64,000 nucleotides of DNA. It comes from Candidatus Eisenbergiella merdavium. GTDB taxonomy: Bacteria; Bacillota; Clostridia; Lachnospirales; Lachnospiraceae. The notes below the pieces were generated by a model that was not told where the DNA came from, ran no database searches, and saw nothing but the letters and a program-made list of their open reading frames with translations. Shown here in pieces: positions 16,030 through 41,768 of this stretch; within the stretch, counting starts at the first letter, position 1, and each line of letters starts with the position of its first letter. The stretch covers positions 1-64,000 of the forward strand of contig DWWS01000020.1 in the NCBI GenBank assembly GCA_019119595.1. The letters are read 5' to 3'. The position numbers and the translations under genes were made by a program.

Positions 16030-16989
16030 CTATATCCGCCGGAACATGTTGACCCACAGCTCAAGCTGTATCCTTATATAATTCCCAAGATTGCGTCCTT
16101 TGAAACGGACGCGGCGTTCCTTTGCCTGCGGCGAGGCACACAGCCGGATCCCTTCCAGCAGGCTTTTTCCGTAGGCTTTTCCATAGCCCTTTTTCAGGAA
16201 AAAGAGGGCTTTTATGAGAAAGCCAGCCAGCAGGAAGGGGCTGTTTATCAAAAGCTGCAGCGGCGGCATGTTTTTATAAATCAGATAAACGTTGTTCCTC
16301 GCGGAATAAAAGATCTTAAAATCGTTATACCTTGAGCCGCTGGTGGCGCTTCCCGCATGGAGCACCACGGCGGAGGGCTCGTAGCCGTTTTGAAATCCCA
16401 GAATGCGGGCGCGGTAGCCCAGATCCACATCCTCCAGATAGGCAAAATGAAGCTCATCGAAGCCTCCCGTCCGTTCCAGGGCGCTTTTCCGGTAGATTGC
16501 CGCTCCCGCGCAGGCGGAGAACACCCGTAGGGGAGCGTCATAGCGCGATGCGCTCTTTCCCTTCCCAACGGCATAAGCCCAGCCCAGGGCGCTGTAAAGA
16601 TCCCCCGCTCCATCCATGCGCTCAGGGGCTTTCAGATCCAACATACGGGCGGATACGGAAAACAGCCGCTCATCCTGCTCCATGCGCCGCTCCAGAGCGC
16701 TGATGCAGCCCGGCCTGACCACGGTATCGTTATTCAGAAGAAATACATAGGCCGTTCCGCTTTCCCGGATCCCTTCGTTGACCGCTGCGGAAAATCCTCT
16801 GTTTTCCGGGAAACGGATCAGGCGGATCCAGGGGAATTCCCTCTCCGCCTCGCTCTCGCTCCCATCTGACGAACCATTATCCACCACGATCACGCTGGGA
16901 CGCTCCTTCTCTGATGCCTCCAGGCTTCTCAGACAATCCGCCAGATATTTTTTCCCGTTATAATTGGGTATCACCACTGTGGTCTTCAA
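16030..16989 (-). CDS. GT2 family glycosyltransferase (WcaE/RfbN-type)
   Basis: This 319-residue protein begins MKTTVVIPNYNGKKYL and has VVDNGSSDGS (36-45), FLLNNDTVV with the DxD-like acidic motif (about 94-101), and HFAYLEDVDLGYRA (about 180), the EDVD base motif of rhamnosyltransferases. The C-terminal part has one or two weakly hydrophobic helices (LLINSPFLLAGFLIKALFFL) that may attach it to the membrane. It starts with TTG (16989-16987); GGAGG lies 8 nt upstream, which supports this choice. It lies 40 bp after the next glycosyltransferase gene in the same transcript. The donor is unknown; dTDP-rhamnose is likely because the rfb genes are in the same locus. Confidence 0.87.
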   Translation of the reverse strand: MKTTVVIPNYNGKKYLADCLRSLEASEKERPSVIVVDNGSSDGSESEAEREFPWIRLIRFPENRGFSAAVNEGIRESGTAYVFLLNNDTVVRPGCISALERRMEQDERLFSVSARMLDLKAPERMDGAGDLYSALGWAYAVGKGKSASRYDAPLRVFSACAGAAIYRKSALERTGGFDELHFAYLEDVDLGYRARILGFQNGYEPSAVVLHAGSATSGSRYNDFKIFYSARNNVYLIYKNMPPLQLLINSPFLLAGFLIKALFFLKKGYGKAYGKSLLEGIRLCASPQAKERRVRFKGRNLGNYIRIQLELWVNMFRRI

Positions 16990-17029
16990 TCCGTTTTCCT
17001 CCGCAGACAGGACTTTTCCTTTTCTGAGG

Positions 17030-18502
17030 CTACCGCGTTTCCTGAGTCCCGCGCATTTCCTGAGATTCCTGCATTTCCTGTGGGTCCCACAGGATCCGGC
17101 CGCCCGCTTCCCGCACGCTCCGGCAGAAGGCCAGACTGACCTGTACAGGATCCTCTCCCCGCCTCACCGCCTCCTGCGCCTGCTGAAGCTTTTCAGAAAG
17201 CCGGACGCCGTCTTCTGCAGCGTATCCCGCGCCGTCTTCCGCATCATATCCGGCCTCATATCCCGCGACATTCCCAGCGACTTCCCGCCAGCCTCCCTCC
17301 GCTTCCGCGCAGTCCCGCACCCGCAGGGCGCGCACATCCGCCGTCTCCACATCCTGCTGGAGCACGGCCCTGTGCATATAGCCGCTGAAACGGCGGGGCA
17401 GTCCGCTGTAACGCATGAGAGCCCCTCCGCCCTTTTCGTCCCTGTCATAGATCCCGCTGCGAAGCCGCCCGTGCCTGGGAGCGAGCGGGCGGGCCACAGC
17501 GGCCACATCCTTCCTGACCGTCAGAACATCGGGGAGGTAACGGATCCGGTAAAAGCCCAGATGCCTGGTATCCTCCACCTGCGCGCTCCAACCCTGCGCA
17601 GCGCAGAAATCCTCCAGCGCCCTCTTTCCCGCCTCGTAAGCATAACGCTTGCTTTCCGGATTGGAGGCCGTGGAGGTCTCATGGCATCTCCAATGGTACA
17701 AGACCTTCGGCACATGCACATAAGCCTCCTCCGGAACGCCGGAAAGCACCCCGGCGGCGGCACGGAGCACCAGATCATAATCCTGCGCGCCGTCGAAGCC
17801 GGGCCGTTCCTTCAGCTCCTGAAAAAAATCCGTCCTGAGCATCAGGAAATGACAGATATAGTTATTGGAAAGAAGCAGATCCAGATTAAAGTCCGTCTTC
17901 CGGTTCGGCTCATAAAAATGCTGCCCCGTTCCGTCGCACTTATCCTCGTCCGAATACAGAAGAACCGGGGAAATTCCCTTCTCTCCGCTCCGCCTCAGGG
18001 CACAGGCCATTTCATACAGGGAGTCGGGCGCAAGAAAATCGTCGTGATCCAAAAGTCCGGTGTAATCTCCCCGAACCTCCTTCAGCGCCGCATTTGTGTT
18101 TCCCGCGATTCCCAGATTTTCGGAAAGCTTCACATAGCGGATGCGCGTATCCCTGTAGCCTTTCACAACCCTTTCCACCGAGTCCGTGCTTCCTGCGTCC
18201 GCGATCACCAGCTCCCAGCTCCGCCAGCTCTGCTGCAGCATACTGTCAAGAAGCACCCGCAAGAATTCGGGCGGCGTCTCATAGGCCGGAACCACCACAG
18301 AAAAAAACGGCGGATTCTCCCAGCCTTCCGCTTCCCTTCTCTGCTTCAGAAGCTCCTCACCGGACGGAGGCTCATAGCGGTAGTCCCTCTGCCTGCTTTC
18401 CAGCAGGAGCCGCTCCGCCACAGCCCAGGCAGCAGCCGATATTCCGTTTCTTTTCAGATATCCAAGTGCGCGCTTCCAGCCCGCCCGGAGCCGTTTTATC
18501 AT
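17030..18502 (-). CDS. GT2 family glycosyltransferase, RgpF-like N-terminal half
   Basis: This 490-residue protein has a GT2 domain from about 68: FFSVVVPAYETPPEF, VIADAGSTDS, GDYTGLLDHDDFLAPD with the metal-binding acidic cluster, and PGFDGAQDYDLVLRA (about 258). The last 170 residues do not show a second complete GT domain and contain a run of imperfect VAGYEAGYDAEDGAGYAAEDG repeats, likely low complexity. A TTG 45 bp further upstream is in frame but has no ribosome site; ATG at 18502 has AGGA in place, so it is preferred. The C-terminus is rich in Glu and Gln with repeated METQ-like words (QEMQESQEMRGTQETR). Neighbours suggest it adds a sugar to the surface glycan. Confidence 0.82.
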   Translation of the reverse strand: MIKRLRAGWKRALGYLKRNGISAAAWAVAERLLLESRQRDYRYEPPSGEELLKQRREAEGWENPPFFSVVVPAYETPPEFLRVLLDSMLQQSWRSWELVIADAGSTDSVERVVKGYRDTRIRYVKLSENLGIAGNTNAALKEVRGDYTGLLDHDDFLAPDSLYEMACALRRSGEKGISPVLLYSDEDKCDGTGQHFYEPNRKTDFNLDLLLSNNYICHFLMLRTDFFQELKERPGFDGAQDYDLVLRAAAGVLSGVPEEAYVHVPKVLYHWRCHETSTASNPESKRYAYEAGKRALEDFCAAQGWSAQVEDTRHLGFYRIRYLPDVLTVRKDVAAVARPLAPRHGRLRSGIYDRDEKGGGALMRYSGLPRRFSGYMHRAVLQQDVETADVRALRVRDCAEAEGGWREVAGNVAGYEAGYDAEDGAGYAAEDGVRLSEKLQQAQEAVRRGEDPVQVSLAFCRSVREAGGRILWDPQEMQESQEMRGTQETR

Positions 18503-18637
18503 AGCTTTTCCTATCTGCGCCGCGAAAGGCACCTGCCTCACCCGCAACGTCTGTTTTCAGAAGGAGCCGGACAGACCGGCCCTTCCGTACAGACGTGCGG
18601 CGTGATGCAGATGCCCCCTCAGCATTGCGCCTTTTCT

Positions 18638-20362
18638 TTACTCAATAACAGCCTTCAGCTCTTCCGTCAGCTTCTCGTTCTTCTCCTGCGCATCCTCAAG
18701 GCTGCTTCCCTTCACGCCCATGTAGAACTTGATCTTGGGTTCGGTTCCGGAGGGCCTTGCGCAGCACCAGGAATCGTTGGTCAGGTCAAAATAGAGCACG
18801 TTTGACTCCGGCAGTCCCGTAGGGCTTTCCGCGCCGGTAGCCAGCTCCTTCGTCACACCGGAGGCATAGTCGCGCATCCGTACCACCTCCAGCTCACCGA
18901 AGCGAGTGGGCGGATTCTTTCTGAGCTGATCCATCATCTGCGCGATCTGTCTGGAGCCGTCGATTCCCTTCAGGGTGATGGTATAAAGGCTTTCCTTAAA
19001 GTAGCCATACTTCTCATACAGCTCCACCATCTGATCCCACAGGGTCTTTCCGTTCTTTTTGCACCATGCGGCGACCTCGCACAGGCACATCACCGCAACC
19101 ACGGCGTCCTTGTCCCTCGCGTGCGTTCCGGCCAGGCAGCCGTAGCTTTCCTCCAGGCCGAACACGTAATTATTGGAGCCGGTCTGCTCAAACAGCTTGA
19201 TCTGCTCTCCGATATATTTGAAGCCGGTCAGCACCTCGATCAGCTTCACGTTATAATCCGCAGCGATCGGATCCGCCATATTGGTGGTCACGATGGTCTT
19301 TACCATGGCAGGATTTTCCGGCATGGTTCCGGTGGCCGTCCGTTCTCTCAGAATATACTCCGCGATCAGCATGCCGGACATGTTTCCGGTAAAGGGTACG
19401 TATTCCCCGCTCTTCGTATCCAGCGCGTAGATACCGAGACGGTCCGCGTCCGGATCGGTGGCCATCACGATGTCCGCGTTCTTTTCCTTCGCCAGCTTCA
19501 GCGCCAGAGTGAATGCCTTGGGATCCTCAGGGTTAGGGTAATCCAGCGTGGTGAACGCGGGATCCGGAAGCTCCTGCTCAGGCACCACATAGACATGCTT
19601 GAAGCCCAGCTCGGAAAGCACCCGGCGTACCGGCTTGTTTCCGGTGCCGTGGAAGGGCGTGTACACGATTCTGATATCGTCCGCCATTTCCTGGATCACC
19701 TCGGGATGGATGATCTGCTTTTTCAGCTCCACCATGTAGGCGTCGTCAATCTCGGAACCGATCACCTGATACAGGCCCTCCTTCATGGCGTCTTCCTTCG
19801 CCATGGTCTTTACCGTATGGTAATCTGTCACCGCCTTCACCTCGGCGATGATCTCCTTATCCTTGGGAGAGGTCACCTGCGCGCCGTCCTCCCAGTATAC
19901 CTTGTAGCCGTTGTACTCCGGCGGATTGTGGCTGGCGGTCACAACGATTCCGGAAATGCAGCCCAGGGTGCGGAGCGCGAAGGAAAGCTCCGGGGTGGGA
20001 CGAAGCTCGTCGAACACATACGCTTTAATCCCGTTCGCCGCCAGGCACAGCGCAGCCTCATCCGCAAATTCCGGGGACATATAGCGGGAATCATAGGCGA
20101 TGGCAACGCCCTTCTTTTCTCCGCCCTGCTTAATGATGTAGTTGGCCAGTCCCTGCGTGGCCTTTCTCACCGTATAAATATTCATCCGGTTGGTGCCCGC
20201 GCCGATCACCCCGCGCAGTCCGCCCGTGCCGAATTCCAGCTCCTTATAGAACCGGTCCTCGATCTCCTTCTCGTTGCCCTCGATCGAAGCAAGCTCATCC
20301 TTCGTCTTCTGGTCAAAATAGGAATCCTCCAGCCAGAACCGATACTCGTCCATAAAGCTCAT
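18638..20362 (-). CDS. pgcA: Alpha-phosphoglucomutase / phosphomannomutase family enzyme
   Basis: This 574-residue enzyme interconverts hexose-6-phosphate and hexose-1-phosphate and so feeds glucose-1-phosphate to RfbA and UDP-glucose synthesis. The phosphoserine is Ser144 in TASHNPPEYNGYK, the metal loop is DPDADRLG (303-310), the sugar-binding loop is GLEESYG, and the phosphate-binding loop near the C-terminus is RPSGTEPKIKFY. The length fits the PgcA/PGM2 type of Firmicutes. AGGAGG precedes the ATG at 8 nt, and a palindrome (20379-20394) lies directly upstream of it. Its position among the glycosyltransferases supports a role in nucleotide-sugar supply. Confidence 0.93.
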   Translation of the reverse strand: MSFMDEYRFWLEDSYFDQKTKDELASIEGNEKEIEDRFYKELEFGTGGLRGVIGAGTNRMNIYTVRKATQGLANYIIKQGGEKKGVAIAYDSRYMSPEFADEAALCLAANGIKAYVFDELRPTPELSFALRTLGCISGIVVTASHNPPEYNGYKVYWEDGAQVTSPKDKEIIAEVKAVTDYHTVKTMAKEDAMKEGLYQVIGSEIDDAYMVELKKQIIHPEVIQEMADDIRIVYTPFHGTGNKPVRRVLSELGFKHVYVVPEQELPDPAFTTLDYPNPEDPKAFTLALKLAKEKNADIVMATDPDADRLGIYALDTKSGEYVPFTGNMSGMLIAEYILRERTATGTMPENPAMVKTIVTTNMADPIAADYNVKLIEVLTGFKYIGEQIKLFEQTGSNNYVFGLEESYGCLAGTHARDKDAVVAVMCLCEVAAWCKKNGKTLWDQMVELYEKYGYFKESLYTITLKGIDGSRQIAQMMDQLRKNPPTRFGELEVVRMRDYASGVTKELATGAESPTGLPESNVLYFDLTNDSWCCARPSGTEPKIKFYMGVKGSSLEDAQEKNEKLTEELKAVIE

Positions 20363-20512: not shown

Positions 20513-22465
20513 TCAGACACGTAAAGAAAAGTCGCTCTTATCCAGGCTGAAATTGGGGTTGTAGTACGGATCCCCCGCCTCCAGCACGTCCTTCCATTTC
20601 TCCCGGAAGCGGGCGGATTCCTCGTTGTAGCGCCGGGCGGCCTCTCCGGTCAGGTCGGAGCCGCGGGAGGCGGACTCGTAATGGTAGGCCTCCGCGAAGG
20701 GAGTGAACACGTTCAGATATCCCAGCTTTCTCAGCTTCAGACAGAAATCCACGTCGTTTAAGGAAACTGCGAAGCTTTCGTCCAGGCCGTCCGCTTCCTC
20801 GTAAAGCGCCTTTTTCACCAGCAGGCAGGCTCCCGTCACGGCGCTCATGTTTTGGGCGTAGCAGAGGCGGCCCATGTATCCCAGATTTTCCCGCTTCTGG
20901 CGGTAGTGTACATGGCCCGCGGTGCGGTGGGTGCCCAAGCCGATGACCACACCGGCGTGCTGGATGGTCTTGTCAGGATAGTACAGCTTGCCTCCCACGG
21001 CTCCCACATCCGGGCGCTGGGCGTACATCAGAAGCTCCTCCATCCAGTTGACCGTGATGATCTGGATATCGTTGTTGAGAAGCAGCACATACTCGCCGGA
21101 GGCCTGGGACACGCCCAGGTTGTTGATGGCGGAATAATTGAAGGCCCCTTTGTAGGTGACGATCTTCACCGCCGGGTTGTTTGCCAGCTCCTCATAATAA
21201 GCGAAAATTTCCCGCGTCTCGCTGTTATTCTCCACCACGATGATCTCATAATTGTCATAGGTGGATTTCTCGATGATGGAGGTGATGCAGCGTCTCAGAT
21301 CCTCCACATGATCCTTGTTGGGAATGACGATGGAAATCTTCGGCTCCCCGATGATCTCGTAGGTGATCTTGAAAATGGTCTCAAAGGCCCTGGTGCTGGT
21401 GATCTTGAAGTTGGCAAAGCCGTGCCTTCTCAGATGATCCGCCACCGCGCCTCTTGCCGATTCCACCACGTAGGGCTTTGCCTCCACGCCGGAGGATACG
21501 CTTCCCGCGTGCTGTCTCCAGTAGTAAAGAAGCTTCGGCACATGAACCACGTTCCTGGCCCGGTCGGTCAGCCGCAGGATCATGTCGTGATCCTGGCTTC
21601 CGTCAAATTTGGTGCGGTACAGCTCCATTCCCTCCAGAAGCTTTTTGTCAAACATGCTGAAATGGCAGATATAGTTGTTGGCCCGCAGGTTGTCGATGGC
21701 ATAGTCCGGCTTGAAGTGCATGGTGATCATCTGATTCACGTCGCCGTTTTTAAAGGTCGCCTCGTCGCAGTAGACATAATCCGCGTCCTTCTCGTTGACC
21801 ACCTTCACATACTCATACAGCACGCAGGGATGCAGCAGGTCATCATGGTCGAAGGGAGCGATGAAGTCTCCCGTAGCAAGCTCCAGACACCGGTTGGTGT
21901 TCTCCGCAATCCCGCCGTTTTTTTCCAGTTTTTTATAAACGATCCGCTTATCCTTCGCCGCGTATTCCCTGCAGATCTCTCCCACGTAGGCGTGTTCGTC
22001 GTCGGAGCCGTCCGCAAGGCACAGCTCCCAGTTTTCATAGGTCTGCGCCTGCACGGAGCCGATCATCTCCCGCAGGAAATTCTCCGGCGTATTCCAGAGG
22101 GGCGTCAGGATGCTGATCCTGATCATCCGGTCAAACACCGCGTTCCTCTGGCGCTCCCGCTCCGCCTCGTCGGGAAAGCTTTCCGTGCCGTAATGGCACA
22201 TGGCTTTGCGCTCGTTGGACTTGTATTTCATCTTGGCGACCACGCCGGAAAGACTGCCGCAGTTTCTCACCCGGTCCACCTGCCGGATACAGAAGTGCAT
22301 GCACTTCCGAAACGGCGCGCTTGCCCTCCAGACCGGATTGTTCTTGATCCGGTCCAGCTTAAACTGCAGATCGTCCACCTGATCCTCCAGCTCGGCCACC
22401 CGGCCCGCCAGATAGGTGCTCTTGTATTTTTCCTGTTCGTAGGCTTCCCTGTAATCCTTATCCAT
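20513..22465 (-). CDS. Large two-domain GT2 glycosyltransferase (RgpF/rhamnan synthesis type)
   Basis: This 650-residue protein carries two GT2 modules. A coiled-coil start (residues about 10-45, YLAGRVAELEDQVDDLQFKL) precedes the first module (about 115-330: ISILTPLWNTPENF, GDFIAPFDHDDLLHP, KFDGSQDHDMIL). The second (about 380-610) has ISIVIPNKDHVEDL, YVLLLNNDIQI, SAVTGACLLVKK and SLNDVDFCLKL with the base-containing DVD. Such double enzymes build repeating polyrhamnose or similar chains in the cytoplasm, with each module adding one linkage. Its second module resembles that of the next gene closely, so the two likely arose by duplication. It is preceded by a 107 bp gap containing a CCGACTGA/TCAGTCGG stem-loop. 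Confidence 0.88.
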   Translation of the reverse strand: MDKDYREAYEQEKYKSTYLAGRVAELEDQVDDLQFKLDRIKNNPVWRASAPFRKCMHFCIRQVDRVRNCGSLSGVVAKMKYKSNERKAMCHYGTESFPDEAERERQRNAVFDRMIRISILTPLWNTPENFLREMIGSVQAQTYENWELCLADGSDDEHAYVGEICREYAAKDKRIVYKKLEKNGGIAENTNRCLELATGDFIAPFDHDDLLHPCVLYEYVKVVNEKDADYVYCDEATFKNGDVNQMITMHFKPDYAIDNLRANNYICHFSMFDKKLLEGMELYRTKFDGSQDHDMILRLTDRARNVVHVPKLLYYWRQHAGSVSSGVEAKPYVVESARGAVADHLRRHGFANFKITSTRAFETIFKITYEIIGEPKISIVIPNKDHVEDLRRCITSIIEKSTYDNYEIIVVENNSETREIFAYYEELANNPAVKIVTYKGAFNYSAINNLGVSQASGEYVLLLNNDIQIITVNWMEELLMYAQRPDVGAVGGKLYYPDKTIQHAGVVIGLGTHRTAGHVHYRQKRENLGYMGRLCYAQNMSAVTGACLLVKKALYEEADGLDESFAVSLNDVDFCLKLRKLGYLNVFTPFAEAYHYESASRGSDLTGEAARRYNEESARFREKWKDVLEAGDPYYNPNFSLDKSDFSLRV

Positions 22466-22572: not shown

Positions 22573-24606
22573 TCAATACTCGATTTTCATGGTTTCCGCC
22601 GTCCACTGGTACAGCTTCTGTCTGGAGCAGCAGTCCTCCCAGAGGAAGCCGATCAGGTATTCGCCCTCCGGCAGGGCCTTTCTGGGAAAGCTTGCGCATA
22701 CGCCGGTGAGCGCCACCTGATGCTTCTCCAGATGTCCCAGGTTTTCCTGAATGTCCGGACGGTACTGCCGGTTCACGGAAAGCTTCCACACCGCTCCCGC
22801 CTCTTCCCCGGCGGGGCCGTCGCCCCGGCCCGCGGGCTTTAAGATCAGGTTGAAACGATACTGGCTGTTGTCCACCTGAAGGGCGTAGCACCAGCCCTGG
22901 ATGAAATAGTCGCCTTCCCCGCTTTTTCCCGTCTCCCACTTGCCAAGGTCGCCGGTAAATTCGATTCCCATGCGCAACACCTCGTTGCTCCATTCCGGGC
23001 GAAGCCCTTCCTTCAGGATCTCCGGCGCGATCCGATCCATCCGGTCCTCATATTCATAGCGGTTGCCCGCGTAAAATTCCTGGTCCAGCACGTCCTTCAC
23101 CAGATACCGGTGATAGTAGGGGTCCCTTCCATAGAGAGAAGGATGCAGCTCATACAGCAGGTTCAGCTCTCCGTGCAGCCGCTTCAGCTTCTCCACGCTG
23201 TCATCCAGCCCCCGGCTTAAGGACTCATGGTGATAAAGGGCCACGTCGTTTCTCACCACGTTCACATAGCCCATGTCGTACAGGCGGTAGCAGAAATCCA
23301 CATCGTTAAAGGCCACCCGTAGATCCTCGTTCAGCCCTCCGCTCTTTTCGTAAACCTCTTTTTTCACCATCAGACAGGCGCCCGTCACGCCGAGCACGTC
23401 GAAAGCCAGGCGGTTTCTGAGAAAATAGTAATCCGTCCGGTCGTCCCGAAACTGCAGCTTGTGGGCCGGGCCAAGCCGGATATTGGTGATCCCCGCGTGC
23501 TGGATGGCGCGGCTTGCCGGATAAAGAAGCTTCACGCCCACCGCTCCCACATGGGGAAGCTGAGCCTTTTCCACCATTTTTTCCAGCCAGTCCTCCTGGA
23601 TGATCTCGATGTCGTCGTTCAGGAGCAGGATATAATCCCCCTTCGCCAGAGCCGCTCCCATATTGCACATCCGGGAAAAATTGAACTCCATGGGCTCATA
23701 TACATAGCGGAACCGGCATCCCGGCTCCATCTGGGAAAGCATCCGCTCAATCCGCGCCCGGTTCTTCTCATTGCTGCCGTTATCGACCACGATGATCTCA
23801 AAATTCCGGTAGCTGCTGGCCTCCATGGCGGAATGGATGCAGGTGGAAAGCACGCCCGGATTGTCCTTGGAGGGGATCACGATGGAAACCATCCCCTCCG
23901 GAGAAAGGGGCCAGCCCCGCCGTATGTAAGCCGCTTCTTTCAGCGCCTCATATTCCTCTTCCATGCCGAAGGGTTCGATGGGTCTGCTTCCGTGGAAAAG
24001 CACGCTGTCCACATGCCCCGCCCCTGCCGTCTCCGACAGCTTCAGGCAGAGATCGTAAAGGTTTTTGTGCCAGTCATTTTCTCCCAGCCAGGAAACGCCA
24101 AGGGCCGCCTGCGTCCGCACGGCGAAAATGTTCCCGAAATAAAAATAAGAGATCAGCGTATCCGGCGACCAGTCCGGCTTCAGCCAGGGATTCGTCCTGC
24201 GGCCTCCGTTTTCGGGAAGGAGCTCGTCCTCGTCCCCGTAGGCCAGAACAGCCTCCGGATTTCTGGCAAAAAAGTCCGCAAAAAGCCTCTGCGCTTCCTC
24301 ATCCGGCCTTCCGCAGTCCGCATGGAAGACCAGGATATCCGCTTCCGTTCCGTCGCTCTCTCGTTTGTCTCCTGCGGCATCCTTTGTGGAAGCGGCATCC
24401 TTTATGGAAAAAGAAGCTCTGCAGGCGCCAAAGGGCACGCATTTTACGGTAAAAGAAGCCCCCTCCAGCGCGCGTCCCGCCCGCTCCTTTTCCTCTTTTC
24501 TGAGGATCCAGTCATGATAGCGCACGGTCTGCTCCCTGATCCTTGCTTCATATCTTGCCGTCTGTCTGCTCCGCATGGGGGCCTGCAGCATTTTCTTGAT
24601 GTTCAA
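22573..24606 (-). CDS. Large GT2 glycosyltransferase with degenerate first module
   Basis: This 677-residue protein has a complete GT2 module at about 238-490 (VSIVIPSKDNPGVL, YILLLNDDIEI, GVTGACLMVKKEVY, AFNDVDFCYRL). Residues about 85-215 resemble the second half of a GT2 module (ADILVFHADCG, VLAYGDEDELL, NPWLKPDWSPDTL) but lack its nucleotide-binding start, so the first module is likely non-catalytic. The last 110 residues form a beta-rich region of unknown role. The start is TTG (24606-24604) with AGGAG at 9 nt. It overlaps the stop of the methyltransferase-kinase gene as TTGA, so the two are translationally coupled. The close coupling suggests that chain elongation and capping proteins are made together. 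Confidence 0.86.
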   Translation of the reverse strand: MNIKKMLQAPMRSRQTARYEARIREQTVRYHDWILRKEEKERAGRALEGASFTVKCVPFGACRASFSIKDAASTKDAAGDKRESDGTEADILVFHADCGRPDEEAQRLFADFFARNPEAVLAYGDEDELLPENGGRRTNPWLKPDWSPDTLISYFYFGNIFAVRTQAALGVSWLGENDWHKNLYDLCLKLSETAGAGHVDSVLFHGSRPIEPFGMEEEYEALKEAAYIRRGWPLSPEGMVSIVIPSKDNPGVLSTCIHSAMEASSYRNFEIIVVDNGSNEKNRARIERMLSQMEPGCRFRYVYEPMEFNFSRMCNMGAALAKGDYILLLNDDIEIIQEDWLEKMVEKAQLPHVGAVGVKLLYPASRAIQHAGITNIRLGPAHKLQFRDDRTDYYFLRNRLAFDVLGVTGACLMVKKEVYEKSGGLNEDLRVAFNDVDFCYRLYDMGYVNVVRNDVALYHHESLSRGLDDSVEKLKRLHGELNLLYELHPSLYGRDPYYHRYLVKDVLDQEFYAGNRYEYEDRMDRIAPEILKEGLRPEWSNEVLRMGIEFTGDLGKWETGKSGEGDYFIQGWCYALQVDNSQYRFNLILKPAGRGDGPAGEEAGAVWKLSVNRQYRPDIQENLGHLEKHQVALTGVCASFPRKALPEGEYLIGFLWEDCCSRQKLYQWTAETMKIEY

Positions 24607-26672
24607 AACCAGTGTCTCCTTTTCAAATTCGAATCCAAAGCCGCCGCAGTCTCCTCCGGCATCCTGTTGATCTCAAATTCCAGCTCCAGGATCTCTCCTG
24701 CCTCTGCGTTTTCCTTTTCCAGGCGGATGTTGATGTTCGGGTCGTTGGTGTGGAAGAAAAAGACCGGCGTCTTCTCCCCCTTTCCCGTCAGCTCCCAGCC
24801 GTTCATGGCAAGAACCGCCTTATCCGAAAGATCCAGCTCCTTCCCGGAAAGATGCGCCGAGCGCATCCGGATGATGCAGGAGCATTCCGCAGGATCCACC
24901 CGCACGCCCCGCACGCCATCCTTTAAGGGAATGGAAAGGCGCATCATATCGGCGGCAACATAGCTGGGATACAGGTAATAAGAGTGCTCCGGACTGTAGC
25001 CGCGCCCGAAATCCTCGAAAATCTCCACGATGCTCCGCTCCACCTGGGAGAAAAAGGACTGCCAGGGCACCGCTCTCCGCCCCAGAAGCACGCGCATGTC
25101 AGAGATGGAAACCCGGTTGCCCGTCACCGCCTTCTGAAATCTCCTCTCTCTGGCCTTATAGCCCTCCGCCTTTTCCTCGCTGATGCCCAGCCGCTTTAAA
25201 AAGGGCTCCATGTCAAGGCTTTTTCTCCGGCCGTCTCCCATCTGGTAGCAGTACAGGGAACGGTAGGCCAGCGCCTCCATATCCACCCGCTCCTCGAAGG
25301 TCCACTCATAATCGATCAGATTCCAGCGTCCCTCCGGATCGATGAGGATATTTCCAAACACCAGGTCATAATCGGAAACCTCCATTTCCTGATGGGTGCG
25401 GATCTTTTGTACATATTCCTCAAACAGCTGATCGAAGCCCGCCTGATCCCCTGCCTCCAGGCGGTCGTCCAGCAGCTCCTCCAGCGTGCTTCCTTCCAGA
25501 TATTCCAGCCGGGCGCAGGGAAGCCCGTCCGGCTGTCTGACCAGCTCGCAGCGGTTCACATACAGCCCGCCCTCCTCATAGCGCTCCTTCAAGAGCCTGC
25601 CATAACGGGCGATATTCTCCACATGCTCCGCGGCTGCCGGGCTGTCCGGATATTTGAGCACCTGCTTTTTCCCCGCTCCATCCTGCGTGATATCCGTACG
25701 GATGGCGTAAATATCCGCACGGTCGTTGGAAAACTTGGAATAAATGGTTTCCGGCGCGGGCCCGGTGACAAGCAGATAGGAATTGCTGTACATGGGAAAG
25801 ATTCCTTCCCGGATCACCATATCGAAGGCGTTCTTTTCATCGAACAGAAGCAGCCTGTCCCCGTCAAAATTCCGGAGATTGCGGGAAAGCTCTCCCGGCC
25901 TGGGAAGCCTTCTGTCCGAATAGATCACATCCGCGAACTTATAGTCCGGATAGGGATAATAAAAATGATAATCGGAAACGCCGCAGGTCGCAAGCAGTCC
26001 CTCCAGCCCCTTCCTGGTGAAGGTGCGCACGCCGCCTCCCTCCGGGTAATCCTCGATCCCCGCGAAAAACTTCGCCAGATGATCCTCCTGACAGCCCGCC
26101 CAGTATTTCATCCCCATCTTGTTCTCGATGGCGATCACCAGGTTCCCACCCGGCTTCACATGCTTTAAGTTGATTTTAAGGAAATCCTCAAAGGGCGTCT
26201 TCGTGGGGATATAGCTCTGCCCGTATTCAAACACGCCGATCAGGAGCACATAGTCGTAGTCGCAGGGAAGATCCGGCTCGATATCCGTAAAATTCCCCAC
26301 ATGGATCGTCACATTGTCCCGCTCCTGATTGCGGATGGCGTTGATGGTGCTGCGCTTTTTGGACAGATCCACACAGGTGACGCTTCCCGCCTTTTCGGCG
26401 AGCACTCCCGTCACCGCTCCCATGCCGCTCCCCACCTCGAGCACCTTCGCGCTCTTATCCATGGGAAGCCAGGAAACGATATTCTCCCGCTGCGGCGACA
26501 GATGGTAAAAAACGGGCCAGCTCTTTTTTTCCTCGATCTGCTTCTGATAATCTCCGGCGGGATGGTTCCTCACGATCTCCAGGATCTCATCCTCCACCGT
26601 CCCGTCGCAGTAAAAATCCTCTCCCGGATAATGCGACAGCTCCAGCGTCACCTTCCCGATCTGCTCAGTCAT
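24603..26672 (-). CDS. Methyltransferase-kinase fusion, WbdD-like glycan chain terminator (predicted)
   Basis: This 689-residue protein joins a class I SAM-dependent methyltransferase (about 50-250; SAM loop KVLEVGSGMGAVTG at 77-90, acidic VDLS at 101-104) to an APH/kinase-like domain (about 300-480). In the latter, Lys340 (QVLKYP) could bind ATP, DYDLVFGN (434-441) matches the catalytic D-x4-N element, and NLIDYEW (451-457) the metal-binding Asp. The last 130 residues look beta-rich. In E. coli O9a, WbdD has the same order (methyltransferase then kinase) and ends chains by adding phosphate and methyl groups. The gene is 8 bp after wzt and overlaps the next glycosyltransferase. The capping role is inferred from architecture and neighbours; no long C-terminal coiled coil like that of WbdD is evident. 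Confidence 0.75.
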   Translation of the reverse strand: MTEQIGKVTLELSHYPGEDFYCDGTVEDEILEIVRNHPAGDYQKQIEEKKSWPVFYHLSPQRENIVSWLPMDKSAKVLEVGSGMGAVTGVLAEKAGSVTCVDLSKKRSTINAIRNQERDNVTIHVGNFTDIEPDLPCDYDYVLLIGVFEYGQSYIPTKTPFEDFLKINLKHVKPGGNLVIAIENKMGMKYWAGCQEDHLAKFFAGIEDYPEGGGVRTFTRKGLEGLLATCGVSDYHFYYPYPDYKFADVIYSDRRLPRPGELSRNLRNFDGDRLLLFDEKNAFDMVIREGIFPMYSNSYLLVTGPAPETIYSKFSNDRADIYAIRTDITQDGAGKKQVLKYPDSPAAAEHVENIARYGRLLKERYEEGGLYVNRCELVRQPDGLPCARLEYLEGSTLEELLDDRLEAGDQAGFDQLFEEYVQKIRTHQEMEVSDYDLVFGNILIDPEGRWNLIDYEWTFEERVDMEALAYRSLYCYQMGDGRRKSLDMEPFLKRLGISEEKAEGYKARERRFQKAVTGNRVSISDMRVLLGRRAVPWQSFFSQVERSIVEIFEDFGRGYSPEHSYYLYPSYVAADMMRLSIPLKDGVRGVRVDPAECSCIIRMRSAHLSGKELDLSDKAVLAMNGWELTGKGEKTPVFFFHTNDPNINIRLEKENAEAGEILELEFEINRMPEETAAALDSNLKRRHWF

Positions 26673-26680
26673 AGTACCTC

Positions 26681-28117
26681 CTACAGTTTCTTTTCATACT
26701 CCACGCGGACGTCCGATTCCATATCAAAGTATCCCACCGTATCATGATCCGAGATCACGGTCAGGTTGAGGATATCGTAAAGCCGGTGGTACACGGTGAA
26801 GGCGTCGCCCTCGTAGCCGGTCACGCCCAGGGAGAGCAGGTATTCCCCGCCCTGAAGGCGTACCTTCTGAGTGAAGGTGATGGAAAGCTCCTCCCCGGCC
26901 TTCACGCTCTCCAGAAAGCTTTTCTCCACCATGGTGTTGGTTCCCGTGATCTCCACGCCCTTGATGTTCTTGATGGAAAGGGCGAAGATGGGGGCCTGCA
27001 GATCCTTTTTGGCCCGCACTCTCATGTGCAGGGTGAAGGGATCCCCCTTCAGGATAGCCGAGGTGCGAAGCCCCGCCCCGTCCGTCATGTAGTATTCGAT
27101 GATCTCAGCCTCTTTGGTACCGTACTCCAGCGCCTGAACGTTGAGCCCGGGCGTCGGTGCGGGTGCGGAAGAAGCGCCTTTATCCGTGCCGCCCGTTTCC
27201 CGGGAAGCAGCCTTCCCTGTGCCATACGCCAAAACAGCATCCTCGGAAGCGCCATCCGCCAAAGCGCCGCCTGCCGAAGCCCCGGCAGCCTTTCCTTCCG
27301 TTTTTTCCGCAGCGGCCCTTCGGATGTCCTCATCCGCGGCAAGGTTTGCCTTTTTGTCCCCGGCGGGCAGCTCGTACTGGCCCACCAGCACCTGCTTGTA
27401 AATGTCGATCATGTCGCGGGGGCTTCCCTCACCCAGCTTCACGCCCTGGTTTAAAAGCACCGCTCTGTCACAGTATTTGCTGATCGCGCTTAAATCATGA
27501 CTGACGAAGAGGATGGTCTTTCCCTGCTTCTTAAATTCCTCGAATTTATGGTAGCATTTTGCCTGAAAAAACACGTCTCCCACGGAAAGGGCCTCATCCA
27601 CGATCAGGATCTCCGGATTGATATTGATGGCCACCGCGAAGGCAAGACGCACGAACATGCCGCTGGAATAGGTTTTCACCGGCTGATATACATAGTCCCC
27701 GATGTCCGCGAAGTCCAGAATATCCTGCAGCTTTTCATCGATCTCCTTTTCCGAAAAGCCGATCATGGTGCCGTTAAGATAGACGTTTTCAATGCCGTTG
27801 TATTCATAATTAAAGCCCGCGCCGAGCTCCAACAGGGCGGAAATGCGCCCGTTCACCTGCACGGTGCCGGAGGTGGGGTTGAGCACTCCGGTGATGATCT
27901 TCAAGATGGTGGACTTCCCGGAGCCGTTGGTTCCGATGATGCCCACGCATTCTCCCTGATGCACGTCCAGATCCACGTTGTTCAGGGCGAAATGCTCCCG
28001 GTAGCGCTTTTTTCTGGCAAGACCAAGCGAATCTATGAGCCTGTCCCTGTTGTGGTCGTACAGGCGGTATACCTTATTCAGTCCCTCCACATGGATGGCA
28101 AGCTGTTTTGTATCCAT
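26681..28117 (-). CDS. wzt: Polysaccharide ABC transporter ATPase with C-terminal glycan-binding domain
   Basis: This 478-residue protein drives export of a lipid-linked glycan. The ATPase domain (1-250) has Walker A GTNGSGKST (62-70), signature YSSGMFVRLAFA (150-161), Walker B ILIVDEAL (170-177) and H-loop SHD (His207). It also has the ELGAGFNYEY segment (97-106) that marks the Wzt/TagH family. After an Ala/Gly/Ser-rich linker of about 75 residues (255-328), residues about 335-478 form a Wzt C-terminal type beta-sandwich (DPFTLHMRVRAK, LSLGVTGYEGD). In O9a-type systems this domain binds the capped non-reducing end of the chain. TagH of teichoic acid export lacks such a domain. It lies between wzm and the methyltransferase-kinase gene. 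Confidence 0.9.
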   Translation of the reverse strand: MDTKQLAIHVEGLNKVYRLYDHNRDRLIDSLGLARKKRYREHFALNNVDLDVHQGECVGIIGTNGSGKSTILKIITGVLNPTSGTVQVNGRISALLELGAGFNYEYNGIENVYLNGTMIGFSEKEIDEKLQDILDFADIGDYVYQPVKTYSSGMFVRLAFAVAININPEILIVDEALSVGDVFFQAKCYHKFEEFKKQGKTILFVSHDLSAISKYCDRAVLLNQGVKLGEGSPRDMIDIYKQVLVGQYELPAGDKKANLAADEDIRRAAAEKTEGKAAGASAGGALADGASEDAVLAYGTGKAASRETGGTDKGASSAPAPTPGLNVQALEYGTKEAEIIEYYMTDGAGLRTSAILKGDPFTLHMRVRAKKDLQAPIFALSIKNIKGVEITGTNTMVEKSFLESVKAGEELSITFTQKVRLQGGEYLLSLGVTGYEGDAFTVYHRLYDILNLTVISDHDTVGYFDMESDVRVEYEKKL

Positions 28118-28128
28118 ATCGTTCCTTC

Positions 28129-29148
28129 CTACATGATGTCGGCAAAGTGCACCTTGAGGCGCTTATACACCAGCGCGCCGATACCGAACAGCACCACGGT
28201 GATGATCCAGAAGTACATGGTGGAATAAAAATCCTCCCAGAACCACTGCTGCCCGTAGATGGCGCTGCGGTAGCCCTCCACGATGTACACCAGCGGATTG
28301 ATCTTCAGAAGCATCTGCGCCGTTTCGCTCATCTGTCCGATGTTCCACAGAACAGGAGTCGCCCACATGCCGATCTGCATGCCGATGCCGATGATCTGCT
28401 GCAGGTCCCGGAAATAGACCACCACGGAGCAGGTGGTATAGCTGATGGCGAGCACCAGCACGAAGGTGCAGAAGCTGTAATAGAACACCTGCAGGGTATA
28501 CAGACTGGGGTAAAAGCCGTAGCAGGTCGATATAACGAGGAGCACGATCACGAAAAAGCCGTGGATAAAGGTGGCCGCTATGATCTTGATGATGGGAAGG
28601 ATACTGATCTTAAAGACCACCTTCTTCACCAGATATTCATACTCCAGAAGCGCCATCATGCCGCTGGTGAGCGCCTCGGAAAAATAGAACCAGGGAACAA
28701 GCCCGGCGGTCAGGAACACCAGGTAGGGAACCTCCACTCCCTTTCCCGCCAGCTCGATCTTCTGGGGCATGATCACCTGAAAGACCACGAAATACAGCGC
28801 CACCGTCACCACAGGCTGCACCATGGCCCAGAGCGCTCCCATATAGGAACCGGCGTAGCGCCGTTTGAAATCATTTTTCGCAAGCCGCCAGATCAGCCGC
28901 CGATTCGCGTAAAGCTCCTGCGGAAGCAGCGTGATCTTGTCGTAAAAACGGGCGAACACCAGGATCGCCGCAAGGATCAGCGCGCAGGCGATGATCTTTT
29001 TCAGAAGCTCGTCCGCCGGATCCGCCAGCGGATTATGGTAACACGCAATAATCACCCCCATGATCAGCATGATGAGGGTGAAAATGGCGATTCCCGTCTT
29101 TTTGCCAGGCAGCCTTCCAGCCGCCAAACCGTTTTTTTCTTTCTTCAT
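28129..29148 (-). CDS. wzm: Polysaccharide ABC transporter permease
   Basis: This 339-residue ABC-2 type permease forms the membrane channel that works with Wzt. After two N-terminal membrane spans (about 18-40 and 48-65), which are additional to the usual six-span core, the conserved start RLIWRLAKNDFKRRYAGSYMGALWA leads into the core domain, with WAMVQPVVTVALYFVVF, GLVPWFYFSEAL and NPLVYIVEGYRSAIYG. Wzm and TagG usually have about 260-280 residues, so the N-terminal extension is notable. A 7 bp stem-loop (29164-29189) lies directly upstream of the start. Only a weak ribosome site is present (GGTACGGGA). Its partners are wzt, 11 bp downstream, and the rfb genes upstream. Confidence 0.9.
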   Translation of the reverse strand: MKKEKNGLAAGRLPGKKTGIAIFTLIMLIMGVIIACYHNPLADPADELLKKIIACALILAAILVFARFYDKITLLPQELYANRRLIWRLAKNDFKRRYAGSYMGALWAMVQPVVTVALYFVVFQVIMPQKIELAGKGVEVPYLVFLTAGLVPWFYFSEALTSGMMALLEYEYLVKKVVFKISILPIIKIIAATFIHGFFVIVLLVISTCYGFYPSLYTLQVFYYSFCTFVLVLAISYTTCSVVVYFRDLQQIIGIGMQIGMWATPVLWNIGQMSETAQMLLKINPLVYIVEGYRSAIYGQQWFWEDFYSTMYFWIITVVLFGIGALVYKRLKVHFADIM

Positions 29149-29245: not shown

Positions 29246-29818
29246 TCACGCCTTCTTTCTGCCGCCGTCCACAGCGTATTCCTTCAGGCCGCCCCATTTC
29301 TGATCCTTTTCAGAAAGGATCAGCTCCATCCCTTCAGGGATCGGCCACCTTACGCCGATCTCCGGGTCGTCCCACTTCAGGCCGCCTTCGTCGTTTGGAT
29401 GGTAAAAATCCGTACATTTATAGGCAAATTCCGCCTCATCGGAAAGCACTACAAAGCCGTGCGCAAAATGCTCCGGAACGAAAAACTGCTTCCTGTTTTC
29501 TGCGGATAAGAGCACTCCGTACCACTTTCCGAAGGTGGGAGATCCCTCCCTTAAATCCACCGCCACATCGAACACCTCGCCCTTTAAGACCCGCACCAGC
29601 TTCGCCTGAGGATATTCGATCTGAAAATGCAGCCCCCTGAGCACGCCCTTCTTCGAGGAGGACTGGTTATCCTGCACGAATACCTGATCGATTCCCGCCT
29701 CCTTATAGGCCTCATAATGATAGGTTTCGCAAAAATATCCCCGCTCATCCCCGAAAACTGCCGGGGTGATCACCTTCAGCCCCTCGATCTCACATGTTTC
29801 TACCGTTATCTTACCCAT
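29246..29818 (-). CDS. rfbC: dTDP-4-dehydrorhamnose 3,5-epimerase
   Basis: This 190-residue cupin enzyme epimerises dTDP-4-keto-6-deoxyglucose at C3 and C5 in dTDP-L-rhamnose synthesis. It shows DERGYFCETY (24-33), FVQDNQSSSKKGVLRGLHFQ (46-65) with the catalytic His in GLHFQ, GKWYGVLLSAEN and PEHFAHGFVVLSDEAEF. The length is typical. The ribosome site is weak: GGAGA lies 13 nt from the ATG. It follows rfbA by 98 bp and precedes wzm by 97 bp, the last of the three rfb genes. Confidence 0.95.
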   Translation of the reverse strand: MGKITVETCEIEGLKVITPAVFGDERGYFCETYHYEAYKEAGIDQVFVQDNQSSSKKGVLRGLHFQIEYPQAKLVRVLKGEVFDVAVDLREGSPTFGKWYGVLLSAENRKQFFVPEHFAHGFVVLSDEAEFAYKCTDFYHPNDEGGLKWDDPEIGVRWPIPEGMELILSEKDQKWGGLKEYAVDGGRKKA

Positions 29819-29916
29819 TCTGCTATCATGCTCTCCATTTCAAAAAATCATTTCAGGTAACAGCGTTTTCCCTGATGTTTCCTTTTTTTAAATCTATCCG
29901 CAAGCGCTCTCTGCTT

Positions 29917-30786
29917 TTAAAGCCCGTTCGCCACTTCCACCAGATATTTTCCGTAGTTGGTCTTCATCAGAGGCTCCGCCAGCTTCAGAAGCTGTTCCTT
30001 CGTGATGAAGCCGCGGCGGTAGGCGATCTCCTCAATGCAGGAAACATACAGCCCCTGCCGCTTCTGAACGGCCGCCACGTAGTCCGAGGCATCCAGCAGG
30101 GAATCGTGGCTTCCCGTATCCAGCCAGGCAAAGCCTCTGCCCAGCGTCTCCACCATCAGGTCGCCCCTGCGCAGGTACTCGTTGTTCACTGCGGTAATCT
30201 CCAGCTCTCCTCTGGCGGAGGGCTTTATGCTCTTCGCGATCTGCACCACATCGTTGTCATAGAAATAGAGGCCGGGAACCGCGAAATTGCTCTTTGGATG
30301 CTCCGGCTTTTCCTCGATGGAAAGAGCCCTTCCGTTTTCGTCAAATTCCACCACGCCGTACTCTCTCGGATCTCTCACATAATATCCGAAGATAGTGGCT
30401 CCCTTTTCTCTGGCAGCGACCGCACGCAGCACCTTTGAAAAGCTCTGTCCATAGAAAATATTATCCCCAAGCACCAGCGCCACGCGGTCCGATCCGATAA
30501 ACGGCTCTCCGATGAGAAACGCCTCTGCAAGCCCTCTCGGCTCCTCCTGCACCGCATAGGAAAGAGAAAGTCCAAGCTGCTCCCCGGTCCCAAACAGCTC
30601 CTGGAACACGGGCAGATCCCGCGGTGTGGAAATGATCAGGATCTCGCGGATATCCGCAAGCATCAGGGTGGAAAGGGGATAGTAGATCATGGGCTTGTCA
30701 TAAACCGGCATGATCTGCTTGGAAATCGCCTTGGTCAGCGGATACAGTCTGGTTCCGCTTCCTCCTGCAAGTATAATGCCCTTCAT
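29917..30786 (-). CDS. rfbA: Glucose-1-phosphate thymidylyltransferase
   Basis: This 289-residue enzyme joins dTTP and glucose-1-phosphate to dTDP-glucose, the first step of dTDP-L-rhamnose synthesis. It begins [18 protein letters not shown] with the nucleotide-binding loop, and shows [29 protein letters not shown] with the metal-binding Asp, and [17 protein letters not shown]. The length is typical for RmlA. AAAGGAGAG precedes the ATG. It lies 12 bp after rfbB, clearly in the same operon. Glucose-1-phosphate can come from the pgcA product in the same locus. Confidence 0.97.
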
Positions 30787-30798
30787 AATACTCTCCTT

Positions 30799-31884
30799 TT
30801 ATTTTCCGGTATGGTACATTTCCTCATAGTATTTCTGATAGTCGCCGCTGGTCACGTTCTTCATCCAGTCCTCATGCTCGAAATACCAGGCAATGGTCTT
30901 TTTGATGCCCTCAGCGAACATGGTCTCCGGCTCCCAGCCGATCTCCGCCCGGATCTTGTCCGGCGCGATGGCGTAGCGGCGGTCATGGCCCTTGCGGTCC
31001 TCCACATAGGTGATCAGCTCCTCGCTCACAAGAGCCTTCCTGGGATCGGAATCCGGAAGCATCTCGCGAAGGGTGTCGATGATGATATGGATGATCTCGA
31101 TATTCTGCTTTTCGTTGTGGCCGCCCACGTTATAGGTTTCAAACAGCCTGCCCTTCTCCTGCACCATGTCGATGGCCTTGGCGTGATCCTCCACAAACAG
31201 CCAGTCGCGCACATTTTTTCCGTCTCCGTAAACGGGGAGCTTCTTCCCATGAAGCGCGTTGTTAATGATCAGCGGAATCAGCTTCTCCGGGAACTGATAG
31301 GGGCCGTAGTTGTTGGAGCAGTTGGTGATGTTCGCCGGGAAATGGTAGGTATCCATATAGGCCTTCACCAGCATGTCGGAGCTGGCCTTGCTGGCGGAAT
31401 AGGGACTGTGGGGTGCGTAGGGCGTGGTCTCATAGAAATATTCGCCCTCATTCTCCAGGGAGCCGTAAACCTCGTCCGTGGAAACGTGAAGGAATTTCTT
31501 CCCCTCCTGAAAGCTTCCGTCCTCCTTCTCCCAGGCCGCCTTCGCGCAGTTGAGCATCACCGCCGTGCCAAGCACGTTGGTCTGCACGAAGATCTCCGGG
31601 TTTTTGATGCTTCTGTCCACATGGCTCTCCGCCGCGAAATGCACCACCCGATCGATGTCGTTTTCCGCAAAGATCTTTTCAATGGCCTCCTTATCGCAGA
31701 TATCAGCGCGGATGAAGGTATAGTTGTCCCTTCCCTCCACGTCCTTCAGATTTTCCAGGTTGCCCGCATAGGTCAGGGCATCCACATTGATGATGCGGAT
31801 CTCATCCCCGTACTTTCTGAACATGTAATGAATATAATTTGAGCCGATAAATCCGGCTCCGCCCGTTACCAGATAGGTTCTCAT
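30799..31884 (-). CDS. rfbB: dTDP-glucose 4,6-dehydratase
   Basis: This 361-residue short-chain dehydrogenase-type enzyme makes dTDP-4-keto-6-deoxyglucose. It begins MRTYLVTGGAGFIGSNYIHY with the NAD-binding glycine loop and has HFAAESHVDRSI, STDEVYGSL, PYSASKASSDML with the Tyr/Lys pair, and NCSNNYGPYQFPEKLIP. A frame extends 48 bp further upstream, but GGAGG lies 6 nt before the ATG at 31884 and the NAD loop starts right there. It is the first gene of rfbB-rfbA-rfbC behind a promoter at 31923-31951. No rfbD (the final reductase) follows in this window. Confidence 0.96.
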   Translation of the reverse strand: MRTYLVTGGAGFIGSNYIHYMFRKYGDEIRIINVDALTYAGNLENLKDVEGRDNYTFIRADICDKEAIEKIFAENDIDRVVHFAAESHVDRSIKNPEIFVQTNVLGTAVMLNCAKAAWEKEDGSFQEGKKFLHVSTDEVYGSLENEGEYFYETTPYAPHSPYSASKASSDMLVKAYMDTYHFPANITNCSNNYGPYQFPEKLIPLIINNALHGKKLPVYGDGKNVRDWLFVEDHAKAIDMVQEKGRLFETYNVGGHNEKQNIEIIHIIIDTLREMLPDSDPRKALVSEELITYVEDRKGHDRRYAIAPDKIRAEIGWEPETMFAEGIKKTIAWYFEHEDWMKNVTSGDYQKYYEEMYHTGK

Positions 31885-31922
31885 ATTTTCCTCCATTTTT
31901 TCAGACTTTTCCATTTTGTAAT

Positions 31923-31951
31923 AGTATAACACATAATTCCTGATTTACCAA
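31923..31951 (-). promoter_or_regulatory. Predicted promoter of the rfbBAC-wzm-wzt operon
   Basis: Minus-strand TTGGTA (31951-31946) and TATACT (31928-31923) are 17 bp apart, 38 bp upstream of the rfbB start. No strong terminator is seen between here and pgcA, so the transcript may run through rfb, wzm-wzt and the glycosyltransferases. Confidence 0.7.
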
Positions 31952-41430: not shown

Positions 41431-41460
41431 GTGTGTTCTCCTGATAATGATTGATAGGCG

Positions 41461-41751
41461 GGCGGTTTGCCGCCGGCTCTCTCGCTTCCCTCCACCCCGC
41501 CGGGCACGCTCGACTCCGCTTCGCTCCGTCTCGCTTTGCGGCTGTCGCCGCATAGCCGGAGGGCAATGCCGGCCGGACGGCAAGCCGCTGGCGGTTTGCC
41601 TCCCGCGTTCCCGACCTCCACTCCGCCGGGCACGCTCGACTCCGCTTCGCTCCGTCTCGCTTTGCGGCTGTCGCCGCATAGCCGGAGGGCAATGCAGACC
41701 CAAGGGAAAGTCGCCTGCGGCGGTTTTCCCTTGGGCTGATTGCCCTCCGGC
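41461..41751. repeat. Tandem repeat of about 126 bp with inverted partial copy, between MBOAT and DltD-like genes
   Basis: A 73 bp block at 41497-41569 is repeated without change at 41623-41695 (offset 126 bp), and GGCGGTTTGCC precedes each copy. A palindrome follows at about 41700-41732, with arms CCCAAGGGAAA and TTTCCCTTGGG around an inner CGCC/GGCG. The end of the repeat (GCCGGAGGGCAAT) returns inverted at 41739-41751 as ATTGCCCTCCGGC. The block is GC-rich and open in one minus-strand frame, but it codes for no recognisable protein. It fills most of the 338 bp gap in the operon. Confidence 0.9.
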
Positions 41752-41768
41752 TGCCCGGCTCGTAGCTT

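Follow-up and report, generated by a model that had tools for sequence, protein, structure and literature searches.

A putative O7-type chain terminator beside wzm and wzt in an Eisenbergiella locus, with a coiled coil on the neighbouring twin glycosyltransferase

We analyzed a polysaccharide locus of the Lachnospiraceae member Candidatus Eisenbergiella merdavium, located in the first 64,000 nucleotides of contig DWWS01000020.1; this whole stretch is referred to as the window. At the centre of the locus lies a gene for a 689-residue protein (24603..26672), which combines a methyltransferase, a predicted kinase and a beta-rich domain, and which we propose to be the chain terminator of an exported glycan. 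All features of the cluster are encoded on the minus strand, in the order rfbB-, rfbA- and rfbC-like open reading frames (ORFs), wzm, wzt, the terminator gene, a GT2 glycosyltransferase gene, a twin GT2 gene, a phosphoglucomutase-type gene, two further GT2 genes, a WcaJ-type gene and an LCP gene. The Wzm-type ABC permease (28129..29148, 339 aa) matched PF01061 (ABC2_membrane) with an E-value of 3.5e-15, and the Wzt-type ATPase (26681..28117, 478 aa) contained ABC_tran and, as a C-terminal carbohydrate-binding domain, Wzt_C. The gaps between wzm and wzt and between wzt and the terminator gene are 11 and 8 nt long, respectively, which suggests that the three genes share a single transcript. The GT2 gene (22573..24606; PF00535, E 1e-21) overlaps the terminator gene by 4 nt and is followed by the gene for the twin GT2 protein (20513..22465, 650 aa), a candidate polymerase with two Glycos_transf_2 stretches (E 4.2e-43). 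An earlier annotation made from the DNA alone (below, the sequence-only reading) had placed a methyltransferase-kinase fusion, Wzt and Wzm side by side, with rfbBAC and an LCP ligase as neighbours. The ORFs and Pfam matches bear this out, with the rfbC-, rfbA- and rfbB-like ORFs of the dTDP-rhamnose route at 29246..31932 (named by eye and after that reading) and the LCP-family glycopolymer transferase at 13163..14452 (PF03816, E 2.5e-34).

The methyltransferase domain of the 689-residue protein covers about residues 1-305 (25758..26672), as judged from Pfam, local profiles and Foldseek. The best Pfam match to a methyltransferase family had an E-value of 7.7e-8 at residues 78-178, and the S-adenosylmethionine loop E79-V-G81-S-G83-M-G85 (26418-26438), already seen in the sequence-only reading, fits the E/DxGxGxG pattern of class I methyltransferases. 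Past residue 230, nothing was found in Pfam (E up to 0.1) or NCBIfam (E up to 0.01). A profile search of the PDB with the C-terminal part gave weak matches (best E 0.13), 13 of the 14 being protein kinases. AlphaFold2 models were built from the window and relative sequences, with 20 alignment rows for the whole protein and 14 for residues 308-689. The whole-protein model reached a mean predicted local distance difference test (pLDDT) score of 84.7 and a predicted template modelling (pTM) score of 0.72, and the partial model values of 87.5 and 0.56. When the partial model was compared with the PDB using Foldseek, 48 of the best 50 rows were kinases by title, headed by PRPK (E 2.9e-6), and the remaining two were chains of large complexes without a name (7wu0_v, 9fqr_Xt). 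The predicted kinase domain spans about residues 309-530 (25083..25748) and includes K340, D436, N441 and D454. These residues as well as H350, E456 and W457 were invariant in all 14 rows of one alignment, window included, and in all 13 rows of a more divergent one, some rows being common to both. The suggestion that the kinase is not real was rejected on the predicted fold and the conserved residues, so that the kinase assignment of the sequence-only reading stands in spite of the missing profile support.

The C-terminal domain, about residues 548-671 (24660..25031), scored 150 bits with a local hidden Markov model, is rich in beta strands in the predicted model and can be aligned with a plasmid-encoded protein of Pseudomonas asturiensis (L073). 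No coiled coil was predicted in the 689-residue protein with a COILS-type score, as the sequence-only reading had noted for the WbdD-type C-terminal coil, and no GT2-GT2 part belongs to this polypeptide; the twin GT2 protein is encoded by a separate gene.

By layout, the closest characterized relative of this protein is the O7-type terminator ORF6 of Klebsiella pneumoniae, and not WbdD. According to the excerpted report on ORF6 (PMC11231755), this enzyme places a methyl-phosphate on position 3 of the terminal rhamnose, as documented by an in-vitro reaction, nuclear magnetic resonance and a D441A mutant. It comprises a methyltransferase, an unannotated 223-residue kinase, an immunoglobulin-like (Ig-like) carbohydrate-binding module (CBM), a coiled coil and GT2-GT2. 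The same excerpts name orthologs in alpha- and gammaproteobacteria and cyanobacteria, some of them without GT2-GT2, and describe for the Klebsiella and E. coli systems that the terminating enzyme sits at the far end of the coiled coil of its own protein. The Eisenbergiella locus resembles ORF6-O7 in the order of the methyltransferase, the kinase of about 220 residues without a profile match and, putatively, the beta/Ig-like domain, and also in the ABC-dependent export and the twin GT2 partner. By the boundaries chosen here the kinase has about 222 residues and its catalytic Asp is residue 436, compared with 223 residues and position 441 in ORF6, which was compared by its description; for sequence comparison, the P. 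asturiensis protein served as a stand-in of O7 layout. By its position, the modelled beta-rich domain may be the counterpart of the Ig-like CBM. In contrast to ORF6-O7, coil and glycosyltransferases form a separate protein here, the terminator carries no coil, and the lineage is Gram-positive with an LCP gene. Judged from sequence and models, the 689-residue protein thus appears to be a variant of the O7-type terminator, with the methyltransferase and kinase features and without the coil on the same chain.

The sequence-only reading had called the protein WbdD-like, and in fold this holds. The whole-protein model found WbdD at rank 2 (4ax8, E 5.5e-10, 489 columns) and rank 11 (4azw, E 2.9e-9, 459 columns), while the other 48 of the best 50 rows were methyltransferases by title or name, and WbdD of E. 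coli O9a, as excerpted in PMC3482155, likewise has a methyltransferase followed by a eukaryotic-type kinase fold. However, the root-mean-square deviation to 4ax8 was 15.3, which means that no single superposition fits all domains. No WbdD chain was among the matches of three PDB sequence searches (phmmer, hmmsearch), and the beta domain here is additional to the WbdD layout. With neither a sequence match nor the coil, direct membership in the WbdD family was rejected.

The same reading had also set capping against Gram-positive practice. The fold, the conserved residues and the co-occurrence described below agree with capping, but that contrast was overstated. Excerpts on Geobacillus stearothermophilus (PMC2943079) describe an S-layer rhamnan to which WsaE adds a 2-O-methyl cap that Wzt is predicted to bind; like our system it is Gram-positive, and wzm and wzt adjoin the capping gene. 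Unlike here, no kinase is named in these excerpts, and the glycan is transferred to the S-layer protein by an oligosaccharyltransferase. For Clostridium difficile SLCT-11 strain Ox247, also Gram-positive with ABC export, the excerpted report (PMC6254364) describes a glycan destined for the S-layer whose non-reducing end bears a modified phosphate, and compares it with O9a; these excerpts assign no genes to the capping. Because of these two proposals, capping before export is not new in Gram-positives. What looks new is the place of the ruler; the literature searched contained no report of the gene module, of an LCP gene in its surroundings or of a coil at this place. No paper on this module in Lachnospiraceae was found in the open-licence literature; a census of terminators and CBMs, reportedly published by Mann, Kimber and Whitfield in Glycobiology in 2019, may already list such loci.

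The Wzt_C domain of the window's Wzt (residues 330-466; 26720..27130) had an E-value of 2.2e-40 with PF14524 and was found at the same place in a genome profile search, in line with the glycan-binding domain of the sequence-only reading. In a PDB sequence search, the best match of Wzt was 8dku (E 2.1e-80), with 250 bits for the nucleotide-binding domain (NBD) and 22.5 bits for the C-terminal domain. This entry is titled simply "ABC transporter" in the search result; we take it to be Aquifex Wzt. The NBD is akin to that of the teichoic acid exporters TagGH/TarGH: TagH models were its top NCBIfam matches, below their cut-offs, and matches to solved TarH and TagH chains were limited to the NBD. 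We know of no TagH with Wzt_C.

We then asked how general the arrangement is. The 689-residue protein of the window shares 89-93% identity with its counterparts in seven assemblies, six of them titled Eisenbergiella and the seventh uncultured Lachnospiraceae; its identity to those of E. tayi and E. porci is 73-74%. A first search with this protein yielded 17 loci, four of which (L014-L017) have methyltransferase and kinase as adjoining separate genes; in L016 the kinase is fused to a twin GT2. With a kinase profile, at least 27 of 391 Clostridia genomes matched at E 1e-3, and 19 of them, the window's included, fell below 1e-25 and were defined as strong kinase loci; weak matches driven by the beta domain alone (e.g. 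G000:C21, G116, G347) were kept out. Since the genome searches scored only the first candidates of a genome (4 to 6 for kinase and Wzt), the counts are lower bounds. Twenty stretches around kinase matches were scored with local profiles, and the usual gene order was wzm, wzt, methyltransferase, kinase. No ABC genes were seen in the fetched stretches of L065 and L066, and L066, with two kinase fragments and no methyltransferase, was excluded. Wzt_C was present in 19 of 20 Wzt proteins of kinase loci, window included, the odd member presumably being that of L067. It was found in at least 70 of the 391 genomes, and a search of these genomes for Wzt-type proteins at E 1e-50 listed at least 136 matches. 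Of the listed Wzt genes, 17 lay no more than 10 kb from a strong kinase match, and all of these carried Wzt_C, compared with 57 of the 119 others (Fisher p 1.2e-5, kinship not corrected).

The window's genome contains two further Wzt genes with Wzt_C (L069 and L070; G000:C21:20579-21895 and 32099-33493). Downstream of them lie genes whose products (1152 and 371 aa, respectively) start like methyltransferases when read by eye; the 371-aa protein shares the C-terminal beta domain of the terminator (33.8 bits) and gave no match to the kinase. At 43906-44706 of G000:C21, a Wzt gene that lacks Wzt_C also precedes a methyltransferase-like gene, and a methyltransferase-like neighbour alone is therefore no marker of capping.

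Next, we looked for the coil that the terminator lacks. Among the 13 cluster proteins scored, the only coil lay at residues 3-43 of the twin GT2 protein (22337..22459; score 0.94), directly followed by the motif WRASAPFR at residues 46-53 (22307..22330), found in a motif scan. For comparison, coils with a score of at least 0.8 were tabulated in 35 loci, 22 of the window's clade and 13 others. In the clade, 0 of 22 terminators had such a coil. A twin GT gene was present in 20 of the 22 loci, L003 and L005 having none in the fetched DNA, and an N-terminal coil of about 40 residues was found in 19 of these 20; the single miss was L002, where the coil of the GT is incomplete. The motif W[KR]x[STA]xPx[RK] stood directly behind the N-terminal coil region in all 20. 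Outside the clade, seven of the 13 loci (L014, L015, L017, L049, L061, L063, L065) had the coil on the kinase protein, behind the kinase, and none of eight stand-alone twin-GT proteins had one. The closest coil-less GT (L065, 824 bits) adjoins a kinase-coil-GT fusion. Three loci were not among the 35: a coil lies behind the kinase in L067 (0.96) and L074 (0.89), and none was found in L073. The motif occurred 23 times in 457 proteins and not at all in one shuffle; 20 matches were at GT N-termini, two followed the beta domain of a kinase protein (L014, L061) and one lay between kinase and GT (L016). Among 30 GT loci, all nine from the clade had a coil ahead of the GT region, compared with one (L084) of the remaining 21; at least six of these 21 are kinase loci of other layouts, so that they are not a clean control.

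L084 itself (G252:C3:183872-185803 and upstream) encodes 930 residues with a methyltransferase-like start (by eye), a coiled coil of 99 residues and a twin GT2, apparently another fusion of terminator, ruler and polymerase.

A methyltransferase tree of 37 rows grouped the 22 fused rows of the window's clade (99/96) within a grade of split genes. Five other fused rows fell outside this clade, and two state changes were needed. The tree was rooted at midpoint, and long branches (L060, L067, L017, L061, and L073/L074 with L067) make its deep part unsure. The reading that we judge simplest is that an originally fused gene was split and later re-fused, and that the coil was left on the polymerase. 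We put forward tentatively that in Lachnospiraceae the ruler coil, with the motif at its end, moved from the terminator, where the E. coli and Klebsiella prototypes have it, to the N-terminus of the polymerase after the split methyltransferase and kinase had re-fused, and that chain length of a wall-linked glycan of a Gram-positive gut bacterium would then be controlled in trans.

Outside Bacillota, the spread of such proteins rests on three plasmid records, obtained by tblastn with P0001: Pseudomonas asturiensis (27% over residues 52-465), Citrobacter braakii (30% over residues 21-313) and Deinococcus (33% over residues 66-180). The P. asturiensis protein (L073, 1457 aa) is encoded downstream of ABC permease and ATPase genes and has GT2 similarity at its C-terminal end. 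Its alignment to the kinase/beta profile by hhalign extends across 338 columns (E 6.7e-7, probability 92), and it contains RRLAAPLR at 809, similar to the motif. The Citrobacter cluster (L074) comprises rfbBACD, ABC genes and glycosyltransferases. Both records thus place Wzm/Wzt and methyltransferase-kinase-like clusters on plasmids, the one of C. braakii being typed as conjugative, and plasmids are a possible route of spread. A search of viral_contigs with P0001 gave six pattern matches and no relative.

Taken together, these features would fit the following sequence of events. A polyprenol-linked, probably rhamnose-containing glycan would be started by the undecaprenyl-phosphate glucose phosphotransferase type enzyme (WcaJ-type; 14479..15906; TIGR03023, 510.6 bits against a cut-off of 410.75) and lengthened in the cytoplasm by GT2 proteins, which include the candidate twin polymerase and two more GT2 genes that lie with the phosphoglucomutase-type gene at 16030..20362 (Pfam). 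Growth would end when the kinase domain of the 689-residue protein phosphorylates the sugar at the non-reducing end; the methyltransferase domain would then methylate this terminal phosphate, as demonstrated for ORF6 of K. pneumoniae O7. The C-terminal domain of Wzt would bind the capped end, Wzm/Wzt would export the chain, and the LCP protein might attach it to peptidoglycan. The distance that separates terminator and polymerase would determine chain length, with the N-terminal coil of the twin GT2 protein as spacer instead of a terminator tail. The sequence-only reading had postulated a different ruler, and the position of this coil lends the idea support, the ruler function itself being our proposal. 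Attachment to the wall is plausible from the LCP gene only. In the seven fused-type loci that were asked (L001, L006, L007, L008, L010, L012, L013; ten genomes searched in all), the best LCP match was always located no more than 0.8 kb from where the fetched stretch ended, on the same contig as inferred from coordinates, and no LCP was seen at the locus in L015-L017; peptidoglycan linkage is thus plausible for the window's clade only. We regard capping by an O7-type terminator, the ruler left aside, as probable, and we give the full account, with capping, recognition by Wzt, export and the coil of the twin GT2 protein as ruler, slightly less than an even chance.

The fold, the conserved residues and the co-occurrence support a cap that would then be recognized by the Wzt domain, and several observations weigh against this account. 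In L058 and L059, other genes intervene between wzt and the methyltransferase/kinase pair; in L063, the local profiles flagged no methyltransferase; and around two of the 19 strong kinase loci (G113, G293), none of the Wzt matches listed lies closer than 10 kb. In L067 (G006:C119:361-3794), the methyltransferase-kinase gene adjoins a 244-aa Wzt without Wzt_C, and no Wzt_C was found in this genome by profile search; here the contig ends inside the methyltransferase-kinase gene, and the kinase match is weaker. The Citrobacter protein was barely alignable with the kinase profile (E 0.035, probability 1.5) and has FEREW for IDYEW, i.e. E in place of D454, so that the second Asp is missing. This last feature would suit an inactive kinase domain in an enzyme that, like E. 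coli O8 WbdD or WsaE, adds just a methyl cap, as would the identity to the L015 row, which is 21-28% in the kinase part compared with 44-57% in the methyltransferase; yet K340, D436, N441 and D454 never varied in the two alignments, and we consider this explanation very improbable. Instead of terminating the chain, the enzyme might also decorate repeat units or a side branch with phosphate or methyl groups, with Wzt_C binding the repeat itself. The position of a cap cannot be revealed by sequence, and 57 Wzt genes carry Wzt_C with no such kinase nearby. However, the domain order and the wzm-wzt neighbourhood are those of the demonstrated O7 terminator, and Wzt_C is present in all listed Wzt proteins encoded near a strong kinase match; we consider decoration improbable as well.

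The role of the coil is more contentious. If capping and its reading by Wzt hold, the coil could merely be a tether that links the polymerase with the membrane or with itself, and the rates of polymerization and capping would then determine length. With only about 40 residues the coil is short, and oligomerization or membrane docking could be its sole role. Moreover, outside the clade a coil of at least 0.8 on kinase or twin GT is absent from six of 13 loci (L016, L058, L059, L060, L062, L064): L016 has the motif alone, the coil of L064 scores 0.61, and that of L058 sits in another beta-domain protein. The P. asturiensis protein has no COILS segment even at 0.2. Weaker coil scores occur within the terminator kinase of L008 (0.73) and L011 (0.54). 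The scoring matrix was entered by hand, and the motif was defined after inspection of the sequences. The shift of the coil was probably one event in one clade, and the 20 clade cases are therefore not independent. Against a mere tether, each of the 23 motif matches falls at a GT N-terminus, after the beta domain or between kinase and GT, and a coil ahead of the GT region is nearly confined to the clade in the imperfect comparison given above. We consider the tether somewhat unlikely. If, instead, the coil of the twin GT2 protein is the ruler, a natural lineage with a polymerase-borne coil would separate ruler from terminator and permit clean swaps, and methyl-phosphate capping would extend to possibly wall-linked glycans of gut Clostridia. 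To our knowledge, little is known about the chain lengths of these glycans and their recognition by the host.

Two further features of the window were noticed by eye. An ORF of 1095 aa at 31969-35256 contains a long stretch rich in TET/TES as well as Ig-like repeats, and its end resembles lysozyme. At 41243-41779, a repeated stretch falls within ORFs that overlap on the two strands; it lies close to the N-terminus of the ORF at 40369-41703.

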